Positions 18,187-46,799 of a DNA stretch of 64,000 bases are shown one piece after another. The position numbers were made by a program, and so were the translations under genes. The first letter of the stretch is position 1. The number at the start of each line of letters is the position of its first letter. The notes beneath the pieces are model-generated. The model was not told where the DNA came from. It was given only the letters and a program-made list of their open reading frames with translations, and did not search any database. The stretch is from the NCBI GenBank assembly GCA_009840385.1, contig VXNX01000013.1, forward strand, positions 634,222 through 698,221. Direction: 5' to 3'. Source of the stretch: Candidatus Dadabacteria bacterium. GTDB lineage: Bacteria; Desulfobacterota_D; UBA1144; Nemesobacterales; Nemesobacteraceae.

Positions 18187-19017
18187 CTAGTCCGAGTAGC
18201 CGGAGATGCGCCCCAGCTGCTCAAGCGTCCTCACTCCCTCGTAGAACTCTCCCCCGATTTCCCAGGTGGGATAGCTCTTTATGTTCTTGGCCGCGCAGAG
18301 CGCGGGGTCGGGGTCGGGACCTCTTCGACTGCACTCAACGTAGGTTATGTAGCCGAACGCCCCTCCGAAAAGCTGCTTCTGCCTCTCGCAGTGAGAGCAT
18401 TTGTAGGAGCCGTACATGGTGGCTCCCCGCTCGGAGAGGTATTTCGCGAGGCTCGCCTGGTAAAAGGTGGCGCTTGAGGGCGATGAGGCCTCTTCTGGCG
18501 CCGGAGAGTGAACGGAGTAGGAAATGGCGAACACAAGGACGATCACCGCCCCCGCCCCGCCAAGCGACACGAGAGCACGCCCGGTCGTCCCCTCCCTCCG
18601 GGATGCCGCGAGCAAAAACACCGCCGCCGCCACTGCTGCAGACACAACGCACCAGGAGCAGATCGCGTCTATTATAAAAAGCTCGAGGTAGGTTAGGTAG
18701 GCGGAAAAACCGACCGCCGCGGCCGAGAGCCAGAAAACAAGGCTCCACTTGGTCCTCCGCCCGAGCGGCAGGAGCACGGCGCCGGCCATGGTGGCGTATC
18801 CCAGCACTCCCAGAAGCGAAACCGGGATGCCGCCGATGCTCGAGTAGCGGCTCTCCCTCACCACGTCACAGCCATGCCCCGTGAGGCAGAGCTCGGCTCC
18901 CCCGAGCACAAAGTCCGCCACGAGCAGATACACGGAGACCGCCGTTCCCAGCACGCAGAGGGCAAACGCCGCAAGCCCCGTCCCCTCGCCCAGAAAGCTG
19001 TTTTTCCATTTGGCCAT
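18187..19017 (-). CDS. VKOR-thioredoxin fusion (disulfide-bond generation)
   Basis: A 276-residue membrane enzyme. Residues 1-145 form the VKOR four-helix core, with loop cysteines in CLTGHGCDVV and the active CxxC (CSWC, about residue 120). After a linker helix, the C-terminal thioredoxin-like domain has CSHC (about residue 210) and the cis-Pro segment SYPTWEIGGEFYEG. Bacterial VKOR reoxidises DsbA-like partners with quinone, and the fused domain is the partner. ATG 19017 is used; a GTG at 19029 lies 10 bases after a TATAAT box and could be the start instead. CCGCGG inverted repeats at 19054-19075 overlap the -35 area. Own terminator downstream. Confidence 0.93.
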   Translation of the reverse strand: MAKWKNSFLGEGTGLAAFALCVLGTAVSVYLLVADFVLGGAELCLTGHGCDVVRESRYSSIGGIPVSLLGVLGYATMAGAVLLPLGRRTKWSLVFWLSAAAVGFSAYLTYLELFIIDAICSWCVVSAAVAAAVFLLAASRREGTTGRALVSLGGAGAVIVLVFAISYSVHSPAPEEASSPSSATFYQASLAKYLSERGATMYGSYKCSHCERQKQLFGGAFGYITYVECSRRGPDPDPALCAAKNIKSYPTWEIGGEFYEGVRTLEQLGRISGYSD

Positions 19018-19192
19018 GGCTGAAACCACCCGTGGGGATATTATACAGCCTATCCGCGGGGTTTAGAAACCGCGGCGGCACAGAAGTTTAAGGACGCGTT
19101 AACGGTTTTTTAAGAGGTGATTAAAAAACGCAAAACCTTCGATTTTCCCCTTGTTTTTTCCGCTCCCTGCGGTTTAATAGGTCTTAGGGAAG

Positions 19193-33843: not shown

Positions 33844-34776
33844 ATGTTGTCTGTGAAGAAGACTCGCCGTACAGCCCATTTGCTTACAGAAAAGGTAAAC
33901 CCGAGAACGATCAATATTGATGAACTTTCGTGCTCAGAAATTATCGATCTTATAAGCGGGGAAGATCGGGAGGCGTTTGAGGCTGTCTCAAGGGAGAGGG
34001 ATGCCGTTTCCCGGGCGGCGGAAATGGTTTTCCGTTCGCTTGAGAGCGGCGGCAGGGTTTTTCTCGTCGGGGCGGGAACGAGCGGACGGCTCGGGGTTAT
34101 GGAAGCCGCTGAATGTCCTCCGACTTTCGGGACGGACCCCCAGACAGTGCAGGCGGTTATGGCGGGAGGACGCGACGCGGTGTGGGAATCGGTTGAAGGC
34201 GCTGAGGATTCCCCTACGGCTTCTGTGAAAGCCCTTCGCGGCAAAAAGCTCTCCGGCGACGACGTGGTCCTTGGAATCGCGGCCAGTTCCGGGACGCCGT
34301 TTGTGGTATCTGCCCTGGAATACGCCCGGGCGGTCGGTTGTGCCACCGTCCTTATATGCTGCAGCGAGCCCGAGGATGTCTCCGCCGACTTGGTCATTCC
34401 TCTTCTTGTCGGTCCGGAAGTGATAGTGGGTTCGACGAGACTTAAGGCCGCGACCGCGACCAAGATGGTCCTTAACATGATTACGACGGCCGCAATGGTG
34501 CTTCTCGGGAAAACTTACGGAAACCTGATGGTGGATCTTAAGCCGGCATCCTCGAAACTTATTGACAGGGCAGGGAGAATCATAATGGACATATGCGGCG
34601 TGGGGGAAGAAGAAGCCGCTTCGCTTTTCCGGGAAGCTGGAGGGAACCTCAAGGTTGCAGTGGTAATGAAACTCGGGGATCTCTCTCGCGAAGAGTCGGT
34701 AAAGCTGCTGAAAGAAAACGGTGGATTGCTGAAAAAGACCCTTGCGAACGTATCCGGCGGCACGGAAAGTCCTTAA
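33844..34776 (+). CDS. murQ: N-acetylmuramic acid 6-phosphate etherase
   Basis: A 310-residue cytosolic lyase that cleaves MurNAc-6-phosphate to GlcNAc-6-phosphate and lactate in peptidoglycan recycling. LTEKVNPRTINIDEL is the family N-terminus. The SIS domain carries VFLVGAGTSGRLGVMEAAECPPTFG (about 72-96, sugar-phosphate site), then IAASSGTPFVVSALEYA and VGSTRLKAATATKMVLNMI. The ATG at 33844 overlaps a TATAAT box (33840-33845). If that box is functional, GTG 33853 (7 bases later) would be the leaderless start. First gene of a murQ-anmK-nagZ-symporter operon. Confidence 0.96.
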   Translation: MLSVKKTRRTAHLLTEKVNPRTINIDELSCSEIIDLISGEDREAFEAVSRERDAVSRAAEMVFRSLESGGRVFLVGAGTSGRLGVMEAAECPPTFGTDPQTVQAVMAGGRDAVWESVEGAEDSPTASVKALRGKKLSGDDVVLGIAASSGTPFVVSALEYARAVGCATVLICCSEPEDVSADLVIPLLVGPEVIVGSTRLKAATATKMVLNMITTAAMVLLGKTYGNLMVDLKPASSKLIDRAGRIIMDICGVGEEEAASLFREAGGNLKVAVVMKLGDLSREESVKLLKENGGLLKKTLANVSGGTESP

Positions 34777-34831
34777 TTGTTCCCGGCCGCCTGTCTGCTA
34801 AATCCCCTTTTCATCAGGTAGCTTTTTCCGT

Positions 34832-36013
34832 GTGAACTGGCTTCATCCGATAATTTCGAAAAAGGAAAAACTCATCATCGGTCTCATTTCCGGGACTTCA
34901 ATGGACGGCATTGACGCGGCGCTGGTAAGAATTCGCGGCTCGGGGGAGGATACCGAAGTGCGGATCGAGGACTTTATCTGTAGGGAATACTCGGATGCTG
35001 CCAGAAAGTTTCTTCTCTCGATCGGTTCCTTAAACGCCGGTTCGGTCTCCGACCTGAATTTCCTCCTCGGCCAGGAGTTTGCCGCCGCAGTGTCTGATCT
35101 TCTCCGCAAAGCCTCCCTGAAAACGACCGATGTGGATCTTGTGGGCACCCACGGTCAGACGGTTTTTCACAACCCGCCCTCTCTCGGGGGAGTTGTTTCC
35201 TCGACCTTCCAGCTCGGCGAAGCCGATGTTATCTGCGAGGAAACGGGAATCACCACTGTGGGAGATTTCAGGACGAGGGACGTGGCGGCTGGTGGAGAAG
35301 GTGCTCCCCTTATGCCCTACGTGGACTACCTGCTGTTCTCTAGGACCGGGAAAAACATAATCGCCCAGAACATAGGGGGCATTTCCAACTGCACTCTGGT
35401 TACGGGAAAACCCGGGGAACTCCTGGCGTTCGATACGGGCCCCGGCAATTCCCTGATTGATTCGGTGGCGCGGCTTGCCTCGGGAGGGGAGAAAAATTTT
35501 GACGAGGACGGAGCGATGGCGAAGAGGGGTTCGGTCAGGGAGGATCTTCTTCGCAGTCTTATGAAAAACCCTTACTTCGACATAGAACCCCCTAAATCGA
35601 CCGGCAGGGAGCTTTTCGGGGAAGAGATGGTCGCGAGGCTTTTCTCGCTTACGGAAAAAAAGAACATCTCCCTGCCTGATCTTCTGCTCACGCTTGTCGA
35701 ATTTACCGTCTGCTCCATAGTTTCCGCCTATGAAAGATTCGTCTACCCGCGCGCGGACGTGGAGGAAGTCGTGCTGAGCGGAGGAGGGGCCTACAATCCG
35801 GTGATGGTCTCAAGGCTTTGTGAAAAGCTCGCCCCGACGAAGCTCTGCCTCTCGGATGAGTACGGCATTCCCCCGGATGCCAAGGAAGCCGTGGGATTCG
35901 CGGTACTCGCAAATGAAACCGTGTGCGCAAACCGGGCGAACGTGCCAGAAGTCACGGGAGCCCGAGAGACTACGGTTCTCGGGAAAATCTCAATCGGGAA
36001 GAATGTATTGTAA
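34832..36013 (+). CDS. anmK: Anhydro-N-acetylmuramic acid kinase
   Basis: A 393-residue kinase that hydrolyses the 1,6-anhydro bond and phosphorylates anhydroMurNAc to MurNAc-6-phosphate, the MurQ substrate. The N-terminal phosphate-binding motif LIIGLISGTSMDGIDAALV is at about residues 11-29. VGTHGQTVFHNPP, VGDFRTRDVAAGGEGAPL, AFDTGPGNSLID and VVLSGGGAYNP complete the ASKHA-type fold. The start is GTG at 34832, 55 bases after murQ. The stop is directly followed by the nagZ ATG (2 bases). Operon context agrees with recycling of cell-wall sugars. Confidence 0.97.
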   Translation: MNWLHPIISKKEKLIIGLISGTSMDGIDAALVRIRGSGEDTEVRIEDFICREYSDAARKFLLSIGSLNAGSVSDLNFLLGQEFAAAVSDLLRKASLKTTDVDLVGTHGQTVFHNPPSLGGVVSSTFQLGEADVICEETGITTVGDFRTRDVAAGGEGAPLMPYVDYLLFSRTGKNIIAQNIGGISNCTLVTGKPGELLAFDTGPGNSLIDSVARLASGGEKNFDEDGAMAKRGSVREDLLRSLMKNPYFDIEPPKSTGRELFGEEMVARLFSLTEKKNISLPDLLLTLVEFTVCSIVSAYERFVYPRADVEEVVLSGGGAYNPVMVSRLCEKLAPTKLCLSDEYGIPPDAKEAVGFAVLANETVCANRANVPEVTGARETTVLGKISIGKNVL

Positions 36014-36015
36014 AA

Positions 36016-37533
36016 ATGTATGAAAATCCAGCCGTGTTTTCATCAGAAGATCTCCCGCCGCCCCGTCTGGCGGCGCAGTTCCTAATGCCGAGGATCGATT
36101 TTTCAGATTCCGGCTCCGTCAGGCGTGCGGAGCGCCTCGTGCGGGATTTCTGCGTCTGCGGTTTCATAGTATTCAACGGGGACGTCGAGCAGGTAAGGGA
36201 GACCACCAGGAAACTTGCGTCCTTGTCCGAACTTCCGCTTCTTTTCGGCTGCGATGTTGAAAGGGGCCTCGGTCAGCGGGTCTCGGGAGCGACCCTTTTC
36301 CCCTTTGCTATGGCCCAGGGGGCGATAGATGACGAGGAGGTTTTAAGACGCCAGGCCGTTATAACCGCCCAGGAGATGAAGTACTGCGGGCTTAATTTGG
36401 CCTTCGCCCCGGTTCTTGACGTAAATACCGAACCGCAAAACCCGATAATAAACGTAAGAGCATTCTCTGATGACCCTGCGGTCGTTTCAAAACTGGGAAG
36501 TGCCTTTGCGGAAACCCTGCAGAAAGAAGGGGTGCTTGCCTGCGCGAAACATTTTCCCGGTCACGGCGCAACTCTCGAGGATTCCCACGCGCGCCTCCCA
36601 AGCGTCAAGAGACCCCTCGAGCGACTTATGGAAACTGATCTTGCTCCTTTTAGAGAAGCGATCGCGGAAAGGCTTCATTCCGTGATGCCGGCGCATGTCC
36701 GTTTTCCGGCCCTTGACCCGCTCGGGCTCCCTGCCACGCTCTCCGAACCGATTCTGTGCGGCCTTCTGCGGGAAAAATTCGGATTCAACGGCCTGATCGT
36801 CTCGGATTCCTTCAGGATGGATGCCTTGGGTGGAGAAGAGCGAGAGGAGGAAAATATACTCGCAGCGCTTGGAAGCGGGGTGGATATAGTCCTCGATCCC
36901 AGAGATCCAGAAGGGTTTCTCGAGAGGCGCGCGGAGGATAGCTTTTTCCGGGATCCGGCGCGCGGGGAATCTCTTAGCAGGATATTCTACGTGAAAAGGC
37001 TTTTCGCCACGGGCATGGAGAAAGCGCCTTCGCCCGATTTTGAGAAAAACGCAGAAGACGCAAGGGAAATCTCCCGCTGCTCTGCCTGCGTTCTGAGAGG
37101 AGGAGTTCTTTCCGGCGGGGAGGTCTCGGTTTTCCACTTCGGCACGGATGAGACAGAGGAGCTTCTGGGCGGGCTTCGCGAAGGGTTCTCCGGGGGAGGA
37201 GTAAGGATAGAGAAGCTTTCCTGCTGGCCCGAGACTCCGCAGTTGCATGGAGATTCTTCGCTTGTGTGCGTTTTGTCGGTCGCGCCCGCGGGCTGGACTG
37301 AGAACTGCGTTATTCCCCCGGAGATAATCGATTGCGTAAACAGTTTCTGTTCTTTTTCGGGCGAGAAGATTCTGCTTACCTTCGGGTCTCCTTATCCCGC
37401 GGCCGAGTTTACCTTTTTCGATACCGTTATCTCGCTTTTCGACTCCTCGCGCGCGGCGGGCCGGGCGGCCGCGGAGGTTCTCACGGGAGATAGGTTTTCC
37501 ACGGCAGGGCTTCCGGTGAAAATAACGCTATGA
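36016..37533 (+). CDS. nagZ: Beta-N-acetylhexosaminidase, glycoside hydrolase family 3 (NagZ-like)
   Basis: A 505-residue GH3 enzyme that removes GlcNAc from GlcNAc-anhydroMurNAc, feeding AnmK. The NagZ loop CAKHFPGHGATLEDSHARLP carries the catalytic His/Asp dyad (about residue 180), and the nucleophile Asp is in LIVSDSFRMDAL (about 270). E. coli NagZ is 341 residues; here a C-terminal alpha/beta domain of about 150 residues follows, as in Gram-positive two-domain homologues. No signal peptide, so it acts in the cytosol. ATG 36016 sits 2 bases after the anmK stop, and its stop overlaps the symporter start (ATGA). Confidence 0.95.
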   Translation: MYENPAVFSSEDLPPPRLAAQFLMPRIDFSDSGSVRRAERLVRDFCVCGFIVFNGDVEQVRETTRKLASLSELPLLFGCDVERGLGQRVSGATLFPFAMAQGAIDDEEVLRRQAVITAQEMKYCGLNLAFAPVLDVNTEPQNPIINVRAFSDDPAVVSKLGSAFAETLQKEGVLACAKHFPGHGATLEDSHARLPSVKRPLERLMETDLAPFREAIAERLHSVMPAHVRFPALDPLGLPATLSEPILCGLLREKFGFNGLIVSDSFRMDALGGEEREEENILAALGSGVDIVLDPRDPEGFLERRAEDSFFRDPARGESLSRIFYVKRLFATGMEKAPSPDFEKNAEDAREISRCSACVLRGGVLSGGEVSVFHFGTDETEELLGGLREGFSGGGVRIEKLSCWPETPQLHGDSSLVCVLSVAPAGWTENCVIPPEIIDCVNSFCSFSGEKILLTFGSPYPAAEFTFFDTVISLFDSSRAAGRAAAEVLTGDRFSTAGLPVKITL

Positions 37534-39272
37534 AACTCTATGCAATAGACTGGGCGCTCGTGGGCATCTATCTGGTTTTTTCCTTGGGGGTCGGCTTTTA
37601 TTTTTCAAGGAGAGCGTCCGGAAGTCTTTCGGACTATTTCGTCTCGGGACGCGGGCTTCCCTGGTGGCTTCTCGGAACCTCGATGGTCGCCACCACTTTT
37701 GCCGCCGACACCCCCCTTGCCATAACGGGGTGGATAAGAACCGAGGGGATATGGAAGAACTGGTTCTGGTGGAACTACATCTTCAGCCACGCGCTTGTGA
37801 TAGTGGTTTTCTCAAGGCTCTGGAGAAGGGCGGAGGTGATAACCGACAACGAGCTCATAGAGCTTCGCTACGGGGGCCGCCCCGCGGCGTTTCTCCGCGG
37901 CTTCAAGGCGTTTTATTTTTCGACGATTTTCAATTTCATAGTCATGGGCTGGGTGATTACCGCGATGACCAAGGTATTTGAGGTATTTTTCGGAGTCGGC
38001 CAGATATATGCCGTTTCGCTGTGCGTTGGAATCGTGCTTGTCTACACGGTTTTCTCCGGGCTCTGGGGGGTGGTGATAACGGATTTGGTGCAGTACGCAA
38101 TAGCGCTCGGCGCCACGGTCATACTCGCCGTCGTGGTCATAAATTCTGACGCGGTCGGAGGCTACAACCAGTTCGTAAGCAAAATAGCGGAACTTCCCCC
38201 CGAGCAGGTCTCTATGTTCATCACGCAACCCACGGGCGGCGAAGATTTTTTCTCTTCCGATTTTTTCACCTTCCTCATTTTCATGACCGTCGTCTGGTGG
38301 TCTTCCCATAACGCCGACGGGGGAGGCTATTTTATACAGCGGCTCTGTTCGGCGAAAAACGAGAGGCATGCCTTGGCGGGCACCGCGTGGTTCGCGCTTA
38401 ACCATTACGTGCTTCGCCTCTGGCCGTGGGTCCTTGTCGCCTTGGCGTCGGTCGTAATCTTTCCCGAAGCGGCTGGGGTGGCGGGCGGAGACGATGAATC
38501 TATGTACCTGGTTATGATAAGGGATTTTCTCCCGCCGGGTCTTCGAGGTCTTCTGCTGGTTTCTTTTCTCGCGGCGTTTATGTCCACGGTCTCTACGCAT
38601 CTTAACTGGGGCGCCTCGTATCTTGTGAATGATCTTTACAGGAGGTTCATGCGGCCAAGCGCCCCGCAGCGCCATTACGTGCGGGTCTCGAGGATAGCGA
38701 CCGTGGCGCTTGCCGTGATCGCGGGCGTGGTGGCGCTTCAGATAAAGAACATAGGGGATGCTTGGATATTTCTCTGGGCGATGAGTTCGGGTATTGGCCT
38801 TGTGCTGATACTCAGGTGGTTCTGGTGGAGGATAAACGCCTGGAGCGAGATAGTGGCGCTTGCCTCATCGCTTGCGACCATACTGGTTCTGATTCTCTAC
38901 ACCGAGGCGAAGGGAATTCCGCTTGAGCTTCGCCACCAGATACTCGTTGTTCCAGTCTCGATAACCTGCTGGGTTGTGGCCACTTTCGCCACCGCTCCCG
39001 AGCCGTGGGAGAAACTCTCGGCATTCTACTCGAGGGTAAGGCCTCCGGGTTTCTGGTCGCCTGTCCGTAAGAGGGCGGGGGTTGAGCGGGAGCGGGGAGC
39101 CTTTTCCTCGGTTCTTCTTAACTGGTCGCTTGTCGTGTCTTTCCTGCTCTGTTTAATGATAGGGGCGGGAAAGCTCGTCTTGGGAGACGGCAGAAGCGCT
39201 CTCTGGCTTCTTTCTGCCTCGGCGATTGCGTTCGCCTTCATCCTGCATCGTCGCGGCAGTTTTTTCCGCTAG
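37530..39272 (+). CDS. Sodium:solute symporter (SSS family), likely sugar importer
   Basis: A 580-residue inner-membrane transporter with about 13 helices. The family hallmarks are SDYFVSGRGLPWWLLGTSMVATTFAADTPLAI near the N-terminus (Na-binding region) and the central VSFLAAFMSTVSTHLNWGASYLVNDLYRRF. The ATG overlaps the nagZ stop by four bases, giving tight translational coupling with murQ-anmK-nagZ. I therefore infer uptake of anhydromuropeptide-derived sugars such as GlcNAc-anhydroMurNAc or MurNAc. The substrate is not directly visible. It would replace AmpG or a PTS in this pathway. Confidence 0.93.
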   Translation: MKLYAIDWALVGIYLVFSLGVGFYFSRRASGSLSDYFVSGRGLPWWLLGTSMVATTFAADTPLAITGWIRTEGIWKNWFWWNYIFSHALVIVVFSRLWRRAEVITDNELIELRYGGRPAAFLRGFKAFYFSTIFNFIVMGWVITAMTKVFEVFFGVGQIYAVSLCVGIVLVYTVFSGLWGVVITDLVQYAIALGATVILAVVVINSDAVGGYNQFVSKIAELPPEQVSMFITQPTGGEDFFSSDFFTFLIFMTVVWWSSHNADGGGYFIQRLCSAKNERHALAGTAWFALNHYVLRLWPWVLVALASVVIFPEAAGVAGGDDESMYLVMIRDFLPPGLRGLLLVSFLAAFMSTVSTHLNWGASYLVNDLYRRFMRPSAPQRHYVRVSRIATVALAVIAGVVALQIKNIGDAWIFLWAMSSGIGLVLILRWFWWRINAWSEIVALASSLATILVLILYTEAKGIPLELRHQILVVPVSITCWVVATFATAPEPWEKLSAFYSRVRPPGFWSPVRKRAGVERERGAFSSVLLNWSLVVSFLLCLMIGAGKLVLGDGRSALWLLSASAIAFAFILHRRGSFFR

Positions 39273-39306: not shown

Positions 39307-39924
39307 ATGGTTGCTATGGCGATTAACGTGAAAGTGCTCAAGCGGCCGCGGCTTTCCTTCTGGGAAAAACTCTACATTCCCCAGGTGCTGAGGGGTCTTA
39401 TGATCACCATAAGGCATATTACGCATTTTCAGCCTATAACAGTGAAATACCCCGAAGAGGTAAAAGCCCTTCCCGAGAATTACAGAGGACTTCACGTGAT
39501 GCCTGCCGATGACGAAGGGGAGATAAGGTGCGTCGCGTGCAAGCTCTGCGAGATTGCCTGTCCCACCCAGGCTATTTCCATAGTTTCCGAACCCGCCGAC
39601 GATTACGGCATCGAAAGAAGGCCCAAGGTTTACAACATAGATTTCATGCGCTGCGTTTTCTGCGGCTTCTGCGTTGAGGCCTGCCCGTGCGACGCGCTTC
39701 GGATGGGGATGAAGTACGAACTTGCCTCCTACAACCGCGCGGGACTCGTTCACACAAAAGAGGTCTTCTTCGACCCAAACGTGAAAAGCGACGCCCCCAG
39801 GGACAACGCGAATTTTCTTTACAAGATGCAAAAGGGAGAGATACTCGATTCCCCTGAAGAAATTTCAAGAATAACGGGGATGGACGGCACCTACTCCAAA
39901 AAGGCCGACCCGCATTCTTCTTAG
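39307..39924 (+). CDS. nuoI: NADH-quinone oxidoreductase subunit I (NuoI-like ferredoxin)
   Basis: A 205-residue protein with two 4Fe-4S motifs: Cys75, 78, 81, 85 (CVACKLCEIACP) and Cys116, 119, 122, 126 (CVFCGFCVEACP). The N-terminal amphipathic segment (VLRGLMITIRHITHFQPITVKYPEE) is typical of NuoI, which carries clusters N6a and N6b near the quinone arm of complex I. No other nuo genes flank it, which is unusual. The symporter gene ends 34 bases upstream. An in-frame ATG at 39316 is also possible, with TATAGA 8 bases before it. Confidence 0.93.
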   Translation: MVAMAINVKVLKRPRLSFWEKLYIPQVLRGLMITIRHITHFQPITVKYPEEVKALPENYRGLHVMPADDEGEIRCVACKLCEIACPTQAISIVSEPADDYGIERRPKVYNIDFMRCVFCGFCVEACPCDALRMGMKYELASYNRAGLVHTKEVFFDPNVKSDAPRDNANFLYKMQKGEILDSPEEISRITGMDGTYSKKADPHSS

Positions 39925-40201
39925 GACTAACCGTTCGTATAGTCCTGAAATCACTTTATAAATTCCTTGACATAACTCAAAATCCCCTGTTAAATATAAA
40001 CCGTGGATTTAGTGCTTGTAACCACACTCACAACTATGGGTTGTGTAGAAACAGGCGATTCAGCGGGAGTTTCGCCTTACTTAACAGATTAAATCGAAAG
40101 GATTTTTAGTCTCGGGAGCGTGCACATACGCACTCCCAAGACCTGAGAAAAAGAGAAGTCGGGTTGTTTTTTCCTGATTTCTTCACGCAAGACCGGCCGA
40201 G
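39925..40201. other. Intergenic region: promoter and structured leader of the SRCR autotransporter gene
   Basis: A perfect TTGACA (39967-39972) with TTAAAT (39990-39995, 17-base spacer) predicts a start near 40002 and a leader of about 200 bases. The leader holds two hairpins: CACAAC/GTTGTG near 40029-40047, and a larger bulged one near 40115-40139 (GGGA-GTGC/GCAC-TCCC). No gene is visible. Confidence 0.5.
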
Positions 40202-43200
40202 ATGGTGGAACATAAACGGCTTGTCTGTCGGGCAGAGCGCCAGCGGGAATCCCTCTCGTCCTTGCATCGCAATGAGAGAGCGGCTGAGCCAATCCCGAAA
40301 CGGGCGAGTTTCCAGATCAAGGTTCTTGGAACCTTATTTTTCCTCTTCTGTCTGAGGGGACTGCGTGCTGTATGTCCCTTATCCCTTTTCACCGTCAGGA
40401 AAAGAGTAACCCTGAGAAGCGGGGTCTGTCTCCTGCTGTTTGTGTACATGCTGTCGATGTTTTTCTCCGTAGCCGCGCATGCCCAAACTCTTGGATTCGC
40501 CACAGATAGCTATAAGGTGACGGATACCACGGAGAAAATTATCCGGGGAAGGCTTGAATACAGTAATGGTCAAGGAGTATGCGACGATTACTTCACGGAT
40601 GAAGACGCAATGGTTGCGTGCGCGGAGTTGGGGCATATACGTAGTGAGGGGAGAGCGCTGACAAGATTGCGTAGCGCTGGCAATGACGACTTCCGGTTGG
40701 ATGACTTGTTGTGTGACGGCAGTGAAGCAAGTCTTGGTGATTGTAGTAGAAGCGATGATGGAAATCCCGGTGACCACAATTGCCGGGACACCGAGCATAC
40801 GGGTGTTGTCTGTCATACAGAAGTCGTCAAACCAAAAGCACCGGAGCTAAGTGCGGCCCCCGACCCGGAAGATGAAGACACGGCAATACTGTCCTGGACT
40901 GCTCCAAGGATCGAATTCACGGGCCACGGCATTAATTACATAGAATCCATAGTTGACAGATATCAACTCCAGATATCGGAGGATGGCAATACGGGCTGGA
41001 CGGATGTTTCCACCGGTATTAGATCCACAAGAAGAGAGTTTCTTCATAGAGGTCTTTCCTCCGGAACGTGGTATTACAGGATCAGGGCTGTCAACACCGC
41101 GGGTAACGGCCCGTATTCGAACGTGGCCGAAGTTACTCTTGGAGGGAATGGGAGCCCCGTATTTTCCGAAGGAACTTCTGCCACCCGTTCTGTAGCGGAA
41201 AACACCGTGGCGGGAGAAAACATCGGTGGTCCGGTCGAGGCTGCGGGTTCAGAAAGCTACTTGCTTGGCGGCACGGATGCGAACTCGTTCGATATTGATG
41301 GAACTACCGGGCAGCTGAAGACAAAGGCGGCGCTTGACTATGAGGACAAGAATTCTTATTCAGTTACGGTTACCGCCCAGCATAACGGGAGTGCGACCTC
41401 AATAGATGTGGCAATTTCGGTTACCAACGTGGATGAACCGGGAGTGGTAATTTTTTCTTATCCGTCACCGTTTCAGGTGAATGAGATCGTGACTGCGACT
41501 TTGAGCGATCCTGACGGTTCCGCTTCAGGCGTCACGTGGGAGTGGGAGAGGTCATTGAGCCAGAACAGCGGTTGGACTTCAATCACCGAGACCACGGACG
41601 CGAGCCACGATCTGGTTGTAGCCGACGAAGACCATTATCTGAGAGCAACGGCGACCTATACGGACGCTGTTTTTGGTTCCGGCAAGACTGCGCGGGCGAT
41701 CTCCAACAAGGTGCCGAATCTTAACTGGCCGCCCATGTTTGATGAAAGTGATCCCGCCACGCGTTCCGTTGCTGAGAATACCACCGCCGGAGAAAACATC
41801 GGTGCCCGAGTTACGGCTATGGATCCGGAAAGCGACACGCTTATCTATTCGCTCGGAGGTACGGACGCGAATTCATTTGATATTGACAGTTCGACAGGGC
41901 AGATAAAAACCAAGAATCCGCTTGATTTCGAGACCAAAAACTCTTACTCGGTTACTGTCATTGCCAGGGACCGGCCCGTGGGCGCCGCAGACCTCCAGAG
42001 TGATACGATCACAGTGACCATCGGCGTAACCGACGAAGAGGAGGAAGGGACAATAACCCTCTCTTCTGTGCAGCCGCAGGTAGACGCGCTGTTGACTGCG
42101 GCTTTAAGAGACCCGGACGGTGACGTATTGGCCGTCACGTGGACTTGGGAGAAATCAACAAGCCGGAATAATGGCTGGACTGTCATAAGCGGTGCCACGG
42201 GATCAGGCTACACGCCTGTTGACGACGACGTGGATAATTACCTGCGTGTGAAGGCAGACTATACGGACCGGCGCGGTTCCGGGAAAATGGCGCACGTAAT
42301 TTCCGACCTTGTGGTGCGTGTCGAGCCGCCGTCAAACAACGCGCCTACGTTCTCCGCTCCCACGGCCACGCGTTCCGTTCCTGAGAACACCCCGCCCGGA
42401 AGGAACGTCGGCGCGCCGGTAACCGCGATGGATCAGGATAACGATCCGCTTACCTATTCGCTTGGAGGTGCTGACGCAGCTTCGTTTGCCCTGGCCGATC
42501 CAACTTCAGGACAGATAAAAACCAAGGCACCTCTTGACTACGAGACCAAGAGATCTTACTCGGTCGAGATTACTGTGAATGACCCTTCCCTGGAGAGCGC
42601 TACCATCGCGGTAACCATCAACGTGACCAATGTGACCGAATCGCCTTCAAGCACGAAAACGCCTGACCCCGGGGTAACGCCGAACACACCGAACACACCG
42701 AACAAGCCGAACAAGCCAAACACACCGAAAGCGACGGTTCCAAGCGCTCCCGGAAATCTCATGGCGGCTGGGGGCGACGGAGAGGTGACGCTTAGCTGGA
42801 GGACCCCGAATGACGGCGGAAGCGTCATCAAGTACTACGAATACATGATTGATGACATCCAGTGGATCTCGACCAAAAGAAAATCCACTACCCACACCAT
42901 AACCGGGCTTATCAACGGTGAGACCTATAAATTCAAGGTGCGTGCGGTGAACAGCATCGGTCCCGGCCCTGAGTCTAGGCCGGTAAGAGCCACGCCTGCC
43001 ACCGCGCCTGGCGCCCCGCAGAATCTGACGGCGGTTCCGGGCGATGAGCGCGTGACGCTCATGTGGGAGCGACCCGTAGATAACGGCGGTCTTCCGATCA
43101 CCAGTTACGAGTACAGCCAGAAGGAAGAGGGTGGCTCGTTTGGCAACTGGATATCCATAGATAACAGCGGTCCCATGGAGACAAATGAAACCAGCTACGT

Positions 43201-44866
43201 GGTCACGGGTCTTAAAAACGGCACTGTCTACTCCTTCAGGGTGCGCGCGGTGAACGTAGTAGGTCCGGGAGATGCTTCAGCCGAGGCCACGGCCGAGACG
43301 AGCGCTTCTGCCTTTCGGCGGCTAAGACGTGTCAGCATCAGTATTCTTCCCGAGTTCGGGAGGACTATGACGAGGAATTCGCTTGATGCGCTTACGTGGC
43401 GTCTTGACAGCGTGCTTTCGGGGTCTTTTGAGCGCACAGGGATGTTCAGGCTCATGGATCAGCGCGCGGGGCTCCACGATGTCATTGGAATTGATATGTG
43501 GGATGATCCGGAACTGTTGGAAGAGCTCAGCCTCGAGGAACTGCTCTACGGGTCTTCATTCATAATCAAGGCCGGAGGGATGCCTAGGAAACCGAAGCAA
43601 TATCCAAAAGAACGGCCCAAAGAAGCTCCCGGAAAGCATACTCGGGAACATTCAAAAGAATTACCGAAAGAATTACGGAGGGAATATCCCGGGGATGAAA
43701 ATATGTGGATTGAAGAGGATGGGAAACCGGAGCTCATAGAGAGGCAGGGGGATATAGCGTTCTGGGGCAAGGCGGACTACAGTGCCCTTTCGGTCGGGAG
43801 AAGCGGCGAAAGTCTGAACTGGGACGGTAGCGTAGCAAGCGGCTATCTCGGGGTCGACAGGCGGTTAACCGAGAGCGTGCTGATGGGACTTTCCGTCGCT
43901 TTGACGAAGGGAGATTTCGATTACACGGACTCCACCCCGGGAGAGGGAGGAAGTGGAGATTACTATGTAAGGATGCTTAGCGTGGCTCCGTACGTTGCGT
44001 GGCTTATATCCGAAGACGCTTACCTCTGGGGTGCGATTGGCTACGGTCGCGGGGAAATAGAGATAGACGACGAAGAAGTTCAGAGCGTCGCTTCAAGCGA
44101 CCTCAGCTACAAGTCGGCGGCCGCGGGAGGAAGCGGCAGGGTGTTTGACGTGGGAGACACCACCTTCTCGCTTAAGGGCGAAGCGTTTAAGGTATGGATG
44201 GATGTTGAGGGCGACGACTACCTGATCGATGACTCCTCCGTGGGAGTACACCAGCTGCGGTTGAGCATGGAGGGAAGCTATGAGTACAGGTTTGCGTCCG
44301 GAACTTGGCTCAATCCCCTTGTGGAAGTTGCGCTTCGCCATGACGGGGGAGACGGAGAGACGGGCACCGGGGTTGAAATCGGAGGCGGGTTCCTTTTCGA
44401 GGATCCGAATATGGGCCTGAGTATTTCCGGAAGGGGGCGCTGGCTGGCGACCCACAGCTCAGATAAGTTCAGCCAGTGGGGCGTGGGGGGAGCGATAATC
44501 CTTGATACGGGAGCGGACAAGCGGGGAGCGCTGTTCAGCGTGGCTCCGGGGTGGGGAGAGACTTCAAGCGGGATTGAGAATCTCTGGGAGCGCGGAGTTA
44601 AAGGACTCTCGTCAGAAGACGGCAGGAACAGCGATATGCACCTTGACGCGGAGTTCGGATACGGACTCTCGGCTCTCGGCGGAGACGGGCTCCTTACTCC
44701 TTACAGCGGCCTCAGGGTTAGAGGAGACGGGTGGCGACAGTACCGCCTCGGCAGTCGTCTGGACCTCGGGCATTCTGCAAGCCTGAGCCTTGAAACCGAG
44801 CGCAGGCAGAGCGACGCGAAGAAACCCGAGCACGGAGTCATGCTGAGAGGAAAGCTTAATTTCTGA
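40202..44866 (+). CDS. Giant predicted autotransporter adhesin with SRCR, FN3 and cadherin-like domains
   Basis: A 1554-residue surface protein. A long N-terminal extension ends in a signal peptide (about residues 70-94, AHA|QT). An SRCR domain (about 112-205) has six cysteines at 127, 140, 171, 181, 194 and 204. FN3 follows (211-315). Three cadherin-like repeats (about 318-412, 512-612, 714-812; motif ATRSVxENTxxGxNxG) alternate with two W-x-W Ig-like modules. A Pro/Asn linker (826-843), two more FN3 modules (846-1033), a charged linker and a C-terminal barrel (about 1185-1554) with final Phe complete it. The barrel fits type V export of the passenger. SRCR domains are best known in animals. 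ATG 40202 is the first possible start and could be too early. Ligand unknown. Confidence 0.88.
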   Translation: MVEHKRLVCRAERQRESLSSLHRNERAAEPIPKRASFQIKVLGTLFFLFCLRGLRAVCPLSLFTVRKRVTLRSGVCLLLFVYMLSMFFSVAAHAQTLGFATDSYKVTDTTEKIIRGRLEYSNGQGVCDDYFTDEDAMVACAELGHIRSEGRALTRLRSAGNDDFRLDDLLCDGSEASLGDCSRSDDGNPGDHNCRDTEHTGVVCHTEVVKPKAPELSAAPDPEDEDTAILSWTAPRIEFTGHGINYIESIVDRYQLQISEDGNTGWTDVSTGIRSTRREFLHRGLSSGTWYYRIRAVNTAGNGPYSNVAEVTLGGNGSPVFSEGTSATRSVAENTVAGENIGGPVEAAGSESYLLGGTDANSFDIDGTTGQLKTKAALDYEDKNSYSVTVTAQHNGSATSIDVAISVTNVDEPGVVIFSYPSPFQVNEIVTATLSDPDGSASGVTWEWERSLSQNSGWTSITETTDASHDLVVADEDHYLRATATYTDAVFGSGKTARAISNKVPNLNWPPMFDESDPATRSVAENTTAGENIGARVTAMDPESDTLIYSLGGTDANSFDIDSSTGQIKTKNPLDFETKNSYSVTVIARDRPVGAADLQSDTITVTIGVTDEEEEGTITLSSVQPQVDALLTAALRDPDGDVLAVTWTWEKSTSRNNGWTVISGATGSGYTPVDDDVDNYLRVKADYTDRRGSGKMAHVISDLVVRVEPPSNNAPTFSAPTATRSVPENTPPGRNVGAPVTAMDQDNDPLTYSLGGADAASFALADPTSGQIKTKAPLDYETKRSYSVEITVNDPSLESATIAVTINVTNVTESPSSTKTPDPGVTPNTPNTPNKPNKPNTPKATVPSAPGNLMAAGGDGEVTLSWRTPNDGGSVIKYYEYMIDDIQWISTKRKSTTHTITGLINGETYKFKVRAVNSIGPGPESRPVRATPATAPGAPQNLTAVPGDERVTLMWERPVDNGGLPITSYEYSQKEEGGSFGNWISIDNSGPMETNETSYVVTGLKNGTVYSFRVRAVNVVGPGDASAEATAETSASAFRRLRRVSISILPEFGRTMTRNSLDALTWRLDSVLSGSFERTGMFRLMDQRAGLHDVIGIDMWDDPELLEELSLEELLYGSSFIIKAGGMPRKPKQYPKERPKEAPGKHTREHSKELPKELRREYPGDENMWIEEDGKPELIERQGDIAFWGKADYSALSVGRSGESLNWDGSVASGYLGVDRRLTESVLMGLSVALTKGDFDYTDSTPGEGGSGDYYVRMLSVAPYVAWLISEDAYLWGAIGYGRGEIEIDDEEVQSVASSDLSYKSAAAGGSGRVFDVGDTTFSLKGEAFKVWMDVEGDDYLIDDSSVGVHQLRLSMEGSYEYRFASGTWLNPLVEVALRHDGGDGETGTGVEIGGGFLFEDPNMGLSISGRGRWLATHSSDKFSQWGVGGAIILDTGADKRGALFSVAPGWGETSSGIENLWERGVKGLSSEDGRNSDMHLDAEFGYGLSALGGDGLLTPYSGLRVRGDGWRQYRLGSRLDLGHSASLSLETERRQSDAKKPEHGVMLRGKLNF

Positions 44867-44951: not shown

Positions 44952-46799
44952 CTACAGCCAGTCGTCTTCAAACGTATCGGCCGGGCGCTGGTGGAAAGCT
45001 CCCGTGTCCAGACTGTTTTTAAAACCCCGGAACTTAAGCAGTCCCGAGATCGCGGGTTTTATCTGGCTTCTTTCGACCACCAGGTGAACCCCTCCGTGTT
45101 CTTCGTAGAATTCAGAGGACATTATTTTCGGGTCGACCCCGCGGCCGCCGCTTGTGAGCTTCACAACGCGGTCCCCGGCAAAAGCTATGGTCGCTTTCTT
45201 CTCCGATATCAGGAAGTCTCCCTGCACAGCGTAGCTCGCAAGCGCTCCTCCCGTTGTCGGGTGGCCGAGTATGGAGATGTTCGGAAGCCCGTGCTCCTTG
45301 AGCCTCATTATCGCGGATATGGTCTTCGCCATCTGGTAGAGCGCCACGGTCCCTTCCTGCATCCGGGCGCCTCCGCTTACTGTTATCGTTACCAGGGGGA
45401 GCTTGTGTTCTATGGCGTAGCTCACCACTATGTTCATCTTCTCACCGAAAACGGAGCTCATTGACCCGCCCATGAACCTGAAATCGCAGACCGCCACCGC
45501 GACGGGTATGCCGAACATGGTCCCGTAGCCCGTTACCAGGGAATCTTTCGAGTCGGTCTTTCCGGCGAGCTTCTGTCTCGAGGACGAATAGTTAAAGAAC
45601 TTGTAGACGGAATCCACGTCTTCAAGAGAGAGGCCGGGTTCTATTTCGTGAAAAGACGCCTCGTCGAGGAGAAAGTCAAGGTAGTCGTCCGAGCTCAGCG
45701 CTTCAGGGCGGTTGCAGTAAGGACACGAGGAATTGTTCGCATGAAGCTCTTTTTTCGTGAGCTGCTTTTTGCAACCGGGGCGTATGATTTTTCCCTGCCC
45801 GTCCTTTTCGTCGTTGCAGAAATGGGGTTCCGATCCGTAGATGGCTATCTGCATCTCTTCGATGTCGGGATTTTCCTTTCTTCCGCTGAAATAGTTGGGA
45901 AGCCAGGCCTTTATTTTCTTTGAGATTCCTTCGTAGATTCTTTGCTGTTTTTTCACGCGCCCGCAGCGCTCGATTTTCCTTCGAAGCTCCTCGCGCAGGT
46001 GCCTTACGTCGTAGCGGTCAAGCTCCTTTGAAGCGGCTGAGAGAGACGCCTGCAGGTTTTTCAGGGTCGCGGGGATGTAATTGCTTTTTCCAAGAGGGGC
46101 CTCTTTCACCACTTCGTCTATTATTCCGTATTTCTTCATGTGAGTCGCGGTGGGCTGAAGCACCTCGAGGGCTTCTGCGACCTTGTCCGCGCTTCTGAAG
46201 AGAATGGCGGAGCAGCCCTCGGCGGTTATCACGGAGTATTCGGCTCGCGAGAGCATAAGTCTTTTGTGTCCGAGCTGTATGGCGATTGCGCCCCCGCTTC
46301 CCCCGAGTCCGAGCACGGTGGTTATCGTTTTCGTTCTTATGGAGATCATTTTCGACTGGCAGTAGGAAATCAGCCAGGACTGAAGTTTTTCGGCCGAGTA
46401 CTCGTAGGGATCTCCTCCTATGGTATCAATGAACGTGAAGAGCTTGAGGCGGTTCTGTTCCGCATACTCCATCATGCATAAAGACAGTCCGTAACCGTCT
46501 GCCTTTACCATTCCGAAGTTAAGTGTTGTTCTTTCCTTTTCGCTGGAAGGGGTCTGCTGGGCTATTACGGCCACTTCCTCTCCCGTGCCCTTGAACACTG
46601 CGGTGCCTACTATGACGGCGGGATCGTTAACGAATTCGATCTTCTTGCCCGAGGGGGCGTGGATGAAGTTTCTGAACCCGTGGAGCTTGTTCCAGGGAGT
46701 AAAGTCGGTGAAGAGAGTTCCGATCAGGTGCTTTGACTTGATCCTGTCGTAGCTCTTTGCCTCCTCGTGGGCCCGAAGTATTTTTGCCGTTGATGCCAT
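44952..46799 (-). CDS. Fused acetyl-CoA carboxylase carboxyltransferase (AccA-AccD single chain)
   Basis: A 615-residue protein joining both carboxyltransferase subunits that make malonyl-CoA from carboxybiotin and acetyl-CoA. Residues 1 to about 265 are AccA-like (LGLGGSGGAIAIQLG, SVITAEGCSAIL). A helical linker leads to an AccD-like half with zinc ligands Cys328, 343, 359 and 362, and VCDFRFMGGSMSSVFGEK, SGGARMQEG and DPTTGG-like HPTTGGALASYAVQGD. In most bacteria accA and accD are separate genes. The zinc ribbon spacing (15, 16, 3) is longer than usual. It stands alone, with no accB/accC near. Confidence 0.9.
   Translation of the reverse strand: MASTAKILRAHEEAKSYDRIKSKHLIGTLFTDFTPWNKLHGFRNFIHAPSGKKIEFVNDPAVIVGTAVFKGTGEEVAVIAQQTPSSEKERTTLNFGMVKADGYGLSLCMMEYAEQNRLKLFTFIDTIGGDPYEYSAEKLQSWLISYCQSKMISIRTKTITTVLGLGGSGGAIAIQLGHKRLMLSRAEYSVITAEGCSAILFRSADKVAEALEVLQPTATHMKKYGIIDEVVKEAPLGKSNYIPATLKNLQASLSAASKELDRYDVRHLREELRRKIERCGRVKKQQRIYEGISKKIKAWLPNYFSGRKENPDIEEMQIAIYGSEPHFCNDEKDGQGKIIRPGCKKQLTKKELHANNSSCPYCNRPEALSSDDYLDFLLDEASFHEIEPGLSLEDVDSVYKFFNYSSSRQKLAGKTDSKDSLVTGYGTMFGIPVAVAVCDFRFMGGSMSSVFGEKMNIVVSYAIEHKLPLVTITVSGGARMQEGTVALYQMAKTISAIMRLKEHGLPNISILGHPTTGGALASYAVQGDFLISEKKATIAFAGDRVVKLTSGGRGVDPKIMSSEFYEEHGGVHLVVERSQIKPAISGLLKFRGFKNSLDTGAFHQRPADTFEDDWL

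Follow-up and report, generated by a model that had tools for sequence, protein, structure and literature searches.

Innate recognition in animals has SRCR domains among its hallmarks; Pfam matches to the family also exist outside animals. In sponges they occur next to FN3 and Ig-like modules, as in the Stylissa carteri repertoire (PMC4772301), and the same neighbours are described for the multiadhesive protein of Geodia cydonium in work cited in PMC4850255. The cation and ligand site of SALSA SRCR8 includes D1019, D1020, D1058, D1059, N1081 and E1086, and ligand binding was abolished in the mutants D1019A and D1020A (PMC7043408). Among bacterial surface proteins, the fibrillar adhesin-like proteins are defined by a layout of distal adhesive module, stalk and anchor (Monzon et al. 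2021, PMC8286594); the survey covers 27 adhesive Pfam families, and its main text makes no mention of SRCR. Sponge symbionts are enriched in genes with cadherin and FN3 modules, whose products have been proposed as attachment proteins (Robbins et al. 2021, PMC8163846). We found no paper on bacterial SRCR domains in sponge symbionts in the open-access literature.

Here we describe a gene of Candidatus Dadabacteria that joins an SRCR domain, which is otherwise characteristic of immune receptors in animals, to a predicted autotransporter barrel. The genome (G000) measures 1.66 Mb in 14 contigs, and the window, to which all positions refer unless a locus is named, is the whole stretch of 64,000 nucleotides that was analysed.

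Gene organization and module layout

Positions 40202-44866 (+) form one uninterrupted ORF of 1554 amino acids, in which a search against Pfam-A found three Cadherin (E=6.9e-35) and three fn3 (E=6.6e-31) matches besides the SRCR and barrel matches treated below. The features are:

39925..40201, +, leader, conserved among the three species that carry the gene here (found in G000, G014 and G004 only)
40202..44866, +, complete ORF of the SRCR-cadherin-FN3 autotransporter; orthologues in G014 (CATOTB), G004 (JAJEGO) and G011 (JAPOQQ); purifying selection
40202..40483, +, N-terminal 94 aa, a long extension followed by the signal peptide core at ~75-94 (...SVAAHA|QT, putative cleavage site), by sequence reading
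40535..40816, +, SRCR domain, residues 112-205, with six group A cysteines and cation-site residues D128, D129, D167, D168, N193 and E198 (Pfam, alignment, solved-chain and profile matches)
40829..41146, +, FN3 module 1, residues ~210-315 (Pfam; Foldseek FN3 matches)
41159..41431, +, cadherin module 1, residues ~320-410 (Pfam)
41432..41725, +, putative Ig-like module 1, residues ~411-508 (assigned by reading the sequence and by its place between cadherin modules; itself unmatched in Pfam)
41726..42034, +, cadherin module 2, residues ~509-611 (Pfam)
42035..42319, +, putative Ig-like module 2, residues ~612-706 (position and likeness to Ig-like module 1)
42323..42637, +, cadherin module 3, residues ~708-812 (Pfam; cadherin-23 and CELSR1 matches)
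42638..42739, +, Pro/Asn/Thr/Lys-rich linker, residues 813-846 (sequence reading)
42740..42994, +, FN3 module 2, residues ~847-931 (Pfam)
43004..43300, +, FN3 module 3, residues ~935-1033 (Pfam)
43319..43753, +, predicted helix ~1041-1073 and disordered K/P/E-rich linker ahead of the barrel (structure prediction)
43754..44863, +, predicted C-terminal outer-membrane barrel, residues ~1185-1554, last residue an aromatic F of beta-signal type (Pfam Autotransporter; AlphaFold model; Foldseek)

The initial annotation, made from the letters and their reading frames, had given this ORF with an SRCR domain at about residues 112-205, and these coordinates hold, the Pfam SRCR match above the cut-off covering residues 115-205. 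Its module list stands for the SRCR domain, the three cadherin modules, the Ig-like modules and the barrel, but not for the FN3 modules, of which it had counted one where we found three (the additional ones at ~847-931 and 935-1033). In G014, a Pfam SCAB-Ig match falls at a stretch comparable to Ig-like module 2.

The stretch ahead of the signal peptide core is unusually long, and residues 21 to 81 contain no ATG, GTG or TTG codon. The extension is common to three species, and its G000 and G014 versions are 81% identical (dN 0.105, dS 0.27). The leader region at 39980-40290, which is specific to this gene and occurs in one copy per genome, also has strongly conserved stretches, GGCGATTC...TTTCGCC and, around the start codon, GACCGGC..ATGGTGGAACATAA.CGGCTTGTC. 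These stretches may form hairpins; a comparison of the leader with Rfam gave no match.

The SRCR domain

When we ran the profile search that the initial annotation had proposed as a check, the Pfam SRCR match at residues 115-205 was significant (44.3 bits, E=2.3e-11, against a cut-off of 26.1 bits). The SRCR region alone matched solved animal SRCR chains, namely those of CD163 (5e-32, summed over domains), neurotrypsin (9e-14), MARCO (8e-12) and DMBT1 (5e-8), as well as PIT54, CD5L, CD6, M2BP, LOXL2 and SCARA5, while a profile built from 28 SRCR sequences of the genus reached 3.7e-27 with neurotrypsin and ~1e-21 with the DMBT1 SRCR domains.

The alignment of 33 domains (the query with 27 further SRCR domains from its genus, and five from CD163) places C127, C140, C171, C181, C194 and C204 in the group A columns, all of them invariant in 33/33 domains. 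Residues 112-205 thus carry the six cysteines C2, C3 and C5-C8, with neither C1 nor C4 and no further cysteine, and the earlier proposal of six group A cysteines agrees with the alignment, where every one of them falls in a cysteine column of CD163 and of the genus. Disulfides in the SRCR family join C2-C7, C3-C8 and C5-C6, and by homology the domain would form the same three pairs (C127-C194, C140-C204 and C171-C181). The structural model was weak (pLDDT ~78 for the SRCR region and 60 for the whole model), and the top Foldseek matches were of FN3 type only, with no SRCR structures among them, so that it is homology that supports the cysteine pattern.

The equivalents of the dual cation site of SALSA SRCR8 are D128, D129, D167, D168, N193 and E198, six of six identical, as placed by the CDD / LDD / N-C / C+4 E pattern and by aligning CD163 domain 2, whose residues at these six positions are identical too. 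All are kept in the G004 orthologue, and one D is replaced by N in G014. Two domains of a third SRCR protein type of the genus (described below) lack the site, indicating that its retention in the autotransporter SRCR is not automatic. Judged by profile and alignment, the domain on the barrel protein is a genuine SRCR domain of group A type.

The barrel and its secretion and folding partners

The Pfam Autotransporter beta-domain was matched at residues 1187-1389 with 35.6 bits (E=1.1e-8; cut-off 26 bits). When residues 1040-1554 were submitted to AlphaFold with nine barrels, the model had a mean pLDDT of 66, mostly 70-90 in the barrel part, and consisted of a helix at ~1041-1073, a disordered K/P/E-rich linker and then ~18 strand segments. 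The best Foldseek match of this moderate prediction was the BrkA autotransporter barrel of Bordetella (E=2.9e-8), with EstA, EspP and Hbp further down, interspersed with TonB receptors. The Pfam match and the BrkA-like predicted fold, moderate as the model is, favour the earlier assignment of residues 1185-1554 to a barrel. Classical autotransporter barrels have 12 strands, and with ~18 predicted strand segments the assignment to the classical class is only putative. The barrel also aligns with barrels that carry Calx-beta passengers elsewhere in the genus.

The Sec-type signal core was read from the sequence, and the C-terminal residue is aromatic. Genes for two Omp85 proteins, a pair of DsbA-family proteins and one VKOR protein are present in the genome, which makes both barrel insertion and disulfide formation plausible. 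The VKOR-family protein lies within the window at 18187-19029 (-) (VKOR at 18607-18969; Pfam E=4.5e-24) and is a likely partner for periplasmic disulfide formation.

SRCR proteins across the genus and beyond

SRCR domains were found in 13 of the 14 genomes of the genus, which are also the only 13 of the 387 genomes, and the only one of the 317 genera, with such domains in our sample; none occurred in the second genus of its family, in any of the other Dadabacteria relatives sampled or in a range of further bacteria. When we took another sample, of 385 genomes around a different centre and in part overlapping with the first, SRCR again turned up in the same genus only. The census of bacterial SRCR covers some hundreds of genomes.

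The SRCR proteins of the genus are of three types. Besides the autotransporter there is an SRCR-middle-SRCR protein of ~440 aa, nearly genus-wide, with a signal-like N-terminus and no barrel; its gene here is G000:C3:49207-50514 (L001:502-1809, 436 aa), and G003 and G011 each have two copies close together. The third type, of 346-370 aa, was seen in G009 and G010 (L102:8095-9204 (-) and L103:686-1723 (-)); it has a conserved terminal CG(E/Q)GGGFGE tail and a domain without the cation-site residues.

A maximum-likelihood tree groups the SRCRs of the three autotransporters in one clade (95/92) and sets all 28 domains from bacteria apart from the five of CD163 (100/99); its root is arbitrary, and its animal side consists of one vertebrate protein, CD163. 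The SRCR domains of the genus are deeply diverged from one another in this tree. Mis-binned animal DNA can be rejected for the autotransporter gene, given the lack of introns, the bacterial flanks in the same order in three genomes and the genus-wide paralogues. A phage or plasmid carrier is unsupported: we found no relatives of either SRCR protein in viral contigs, and none of the SRCR-middle-SRCR protein in phage and plasmid collections.

Gain, loss and mosaic evolution of the locus

Orthologues of the autotransporter occur in three other genomes of the genus, all Candidatus Dadabacteria MAGs (G014, G004 and G011), and the SRCR domain was seen in two of them (G014 and G004); the G011 orthologue adjoins rpsB, and its contig ends before the SRCR position. 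In G000, G014 and G004 the neighbours of the gene are a ferredoxin-type (nuoI-like) gene (39307-39924) on one side and accDA on the other. The latter is convergent (44952-46799 (-)), a single gene with ACCA and Carboxyl_trans domains, that is, fused acetyl-CoA carboxylase carboxyltransferase subunits. Further upstream, genes for a SIS-domain protein, AnmK, GH3 and a sodium:solute symporter stand in a row (33844-39272), which looks like a cluster for recycling of cell-wall sugar (anhydro-MurNAc).

In eight relatives from the genus, and in the sister genus as well, the autotransporter site is empty and the nuoI-like gene and accDA are adjacent. G007 has at the same intergenic site an unrelated gene of 600 aa (L086:10320-12119), with metallophosphatase/5'-nucleotidase-like motifs by reading only. 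When we inspected the empty sites of G003, G009 and G012 (L087, L088 and L089), we found a remnant of ~72 bases of the autotransporter 3' end, the last ~21 codons, which reads in frame ...AKPEHxVILRGEVNF* as compared with ...KKPEHGVMLRGKLNF* in the full gene here, and which aligns with the 3' end at a local score of 42 against a shuffle maximum of 14-16. These remnants indicate that the gene was at the site before the species split and was later deleted in some of them, and they led us to reject a simple recent insertion between nuoI and accDA. The G014 copy has one in-frame stop (L004:7551-7553), either a mutation or an assembly error, and the gene is missing from the locus in G013, which of the genomes compared is the one closest to G014 (accDA dS 0.14). 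Its absence or deletion in most of the genus, together with the stop in G014, indicates that the autotransporter is dispensable.

The gene is under purifying selection, dN/dS against G014 being <0.4 in the SRCR domain and in every other module and ~0.13 in the barrel. DNA identity with G014 is 86-89% over most of codons 1-420 (77-83% across the SRCR) and 58-85% afterwards; with G004, codons 61-360 are ~45-53% identical and those from 841 onwards 79-93%. The flanking genes have similar distances to both species (dS ~0.4-0.65). This mosaic of identities is consistent with species having exchanged passenger modules. GC3 is 0.48 in the SRCR and climbs to 0.67-0.69 in FN3 modules 2 and 3 and the barrel, the latter being like the neighbouring genes, a contrast that is suggestive only, as the SRCR has 94 codons.

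Lifestyle, function and alternative explanations

Dadabacteria are present in sponge MAG sets (PMC8163846), and one of the clades of the phylum includes sponge-derived genomes (PMC8115339). The source bacterium is likely a sponge symbiont, a reading that rests on its belonging to a phylum with sponge-associated members; to this extent the lineage is compatible with the host-associated life that the initial annotation had suggested. A search of this genome for ankyrin repeats, which would be an independent sign of host life, found none. G023, from another family of the same order, has 40 ankyrin-repeat matches and several related autotransporter barrels with other passengers.

We consider it probable, if by no means certain, that a host-associated, most likely sponge-associated, member of Candidatus Dadabacteria has here an autotransporter of the fibrillar adhesin-like class, tipped with an SRCR domain that acts with Ca2+. 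The order of distal adhesive-type module, middle stalk and C-terminal anchor is the layout of PMC8286594 and counts for this reading, as do the cysteine and cation-site residues, the Dsb, VKOR and Omp85 genes, the BrkA-like predicted fold, the purifying selection, the restriction of SRCR to this genus within the 387-genome sample and the cadherin and FN3 genes of sponge MAGs. Against it weigh the weak SRCR model, the dispensability of the gene and the strand count of the barrel. The Sec signal would direct export, the BAM machinery would insert the C-terminal barrel and the passenger would stay anchored at the surface, with the cadherin/Ig/FN3 stalk keeping the N-terminal SRCR far from the cell. 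The tip, with its three predicted disulfides made in the periplasm and its conserved cation site, would bind its ligand with Ca2+, probably a polyanionic or glycoprotein surface on the host matrix or on neighbouring microbes. Ca2+-dependent binding by an SRCR tip would be the most economical mechanism, with either host matrix or bacterial surfaces as possible ligands.

It is possible, though we think it somewhat unlikely, that the tip binds other bacteria or its own kind and serves aggregation or biofilm packing inside the host instead of attachment to the animal. Binding to bacterial surfaces is common among animal SRCR domains (PMC7043408), work cited in PMC8163846 reports a part of bacterial cadherin domains in cell-cell adhesion, and the genus has further SRCR proteins without a barrel; nothing specific speaks against such a role, and bacterial ligands cannot be told from host ones by the sequence. 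The initial annotation had suggested host mimicry or immune evasion. A protein that mimics or evades sponge SRCR receptors is an attractive idea, as the SRCR domains of sponges number from hundreds to thousands, in many cases joined to FN3 and Ig-like modules (PMC4772301, PMC10855680), and bacterial SRCR seems confined to one genus in our sample. That the domain poses as a host scavenger receptor, as decoy or mimic, and conceals the cell from sponge receptors that bear SRCR or competes for their ligands, is nonetheless highly doubtful: there is no sign of a recent transfer from a sponge, the deeply diverged SRCRs of the genus all lying on one side of a tree whose animal reference is vertebrate CD163 only. 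A further reading, and an unlikely one, is that SRCR was taken up from a sponge host early in the genus, came to occupy three sorts of secreted or surface protein, and is swapped between passengers to engage or evade host SRCR recognition.

The protein could also be unremarkable, if SRCR domains were widespread in bacteria and unlinked to animals, as the generally known matches outside animals would allow. We regard this as quite unlikely, since one genus accounts for all the SRCR domains in both samples, and the partner SRCR protein has no phage or plasmid relatives. Finally, the empty site in eight relatives with its 72-base remnant in three of them, the stop in G014 and the lack of the gene in the closely related G013 might be taken to mean that an ancestral adhesin is being lost and has little present function. 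This is very improbable for the gene described here, whose frame is open over 1554 codons, with dN well below dS against G014 in every module. If the fibrillar adhesin-like autotransporter that we favour is correct, a genus showing SRCR on outer-membrane fibre tips would be a testable candidate for recognition, in either direction, between an uncultured symbiont and its host; the SRCR domain, being small, lends itself to expression and assay in isolation.

Comparison with known systems

The sponge-symbiont proteins with cadherin and FN3 modules (PMC8163846) resemble the present one in modules proposed for attachment and in coming from MAGs that include Dadabacteria, but SRCR and autotransporters are absent from that account. 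SRCR-FN3-Ig surface proteins of sponges share the combination of SRCR with FN3 and Ig-like modules, as compared by description; they are animal proteins and lack a cadherin/Ig stalk with an outer-membrane barrel. The module order that the initial annotation had called animal-like is so only in part: SRCR stands beside FN3 and Ig-like modules as in sponges, whereas the alternating cadherin/Ig stalk and C-terminal barrel follow the layout of bacterial fibrillar adhesins. With the SRCR domains of group A (MARCO, SALSA/DMBT1, neurotrypsin and M2BP) the domain has in common the six cysteines, the CDD...LDD...HNC...E cation site and the Pfam SRCR match; it differs in being bacterial and barrel-anchored and in its loop lengths, and the SRCR of the G004 orthologue has insertions between the third, fourth and fifth cysteines.

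Type Va autotransporters such as BrkA, EspP, Hbp and EstA have in common with it a C-terminal Pfam Autotransporter barrel, BrkA-like in its predicted fold, the aromatic end and, as read from the sequence, a putative Sec-type signal. In contrast to them, the Dadabacteria passenger is a string of globular eukaryote-like modules with no beta-helix or enzyme, a linker of ~110 residues lies between helix and barrel, and the predicted strand count is not 12. The closest likeness in layout is to the fibrillar adhesin-like proteins, among them intimin-like and autotransporter-anchored members, which also carry a distal adhesive module, a repeated stalk and an outer-membrane anchor in one chain; the layout corresponds if the SRCR domain is, by analogy, taken as the adhesive module. 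The initial view that no named system covers the arrangement was too strong, since the layout is covered by this class (PMC8286594). What sets the Dadabacteria protein apart from it, and what is unusual in the arrangement, is the SRCR domain as tip.
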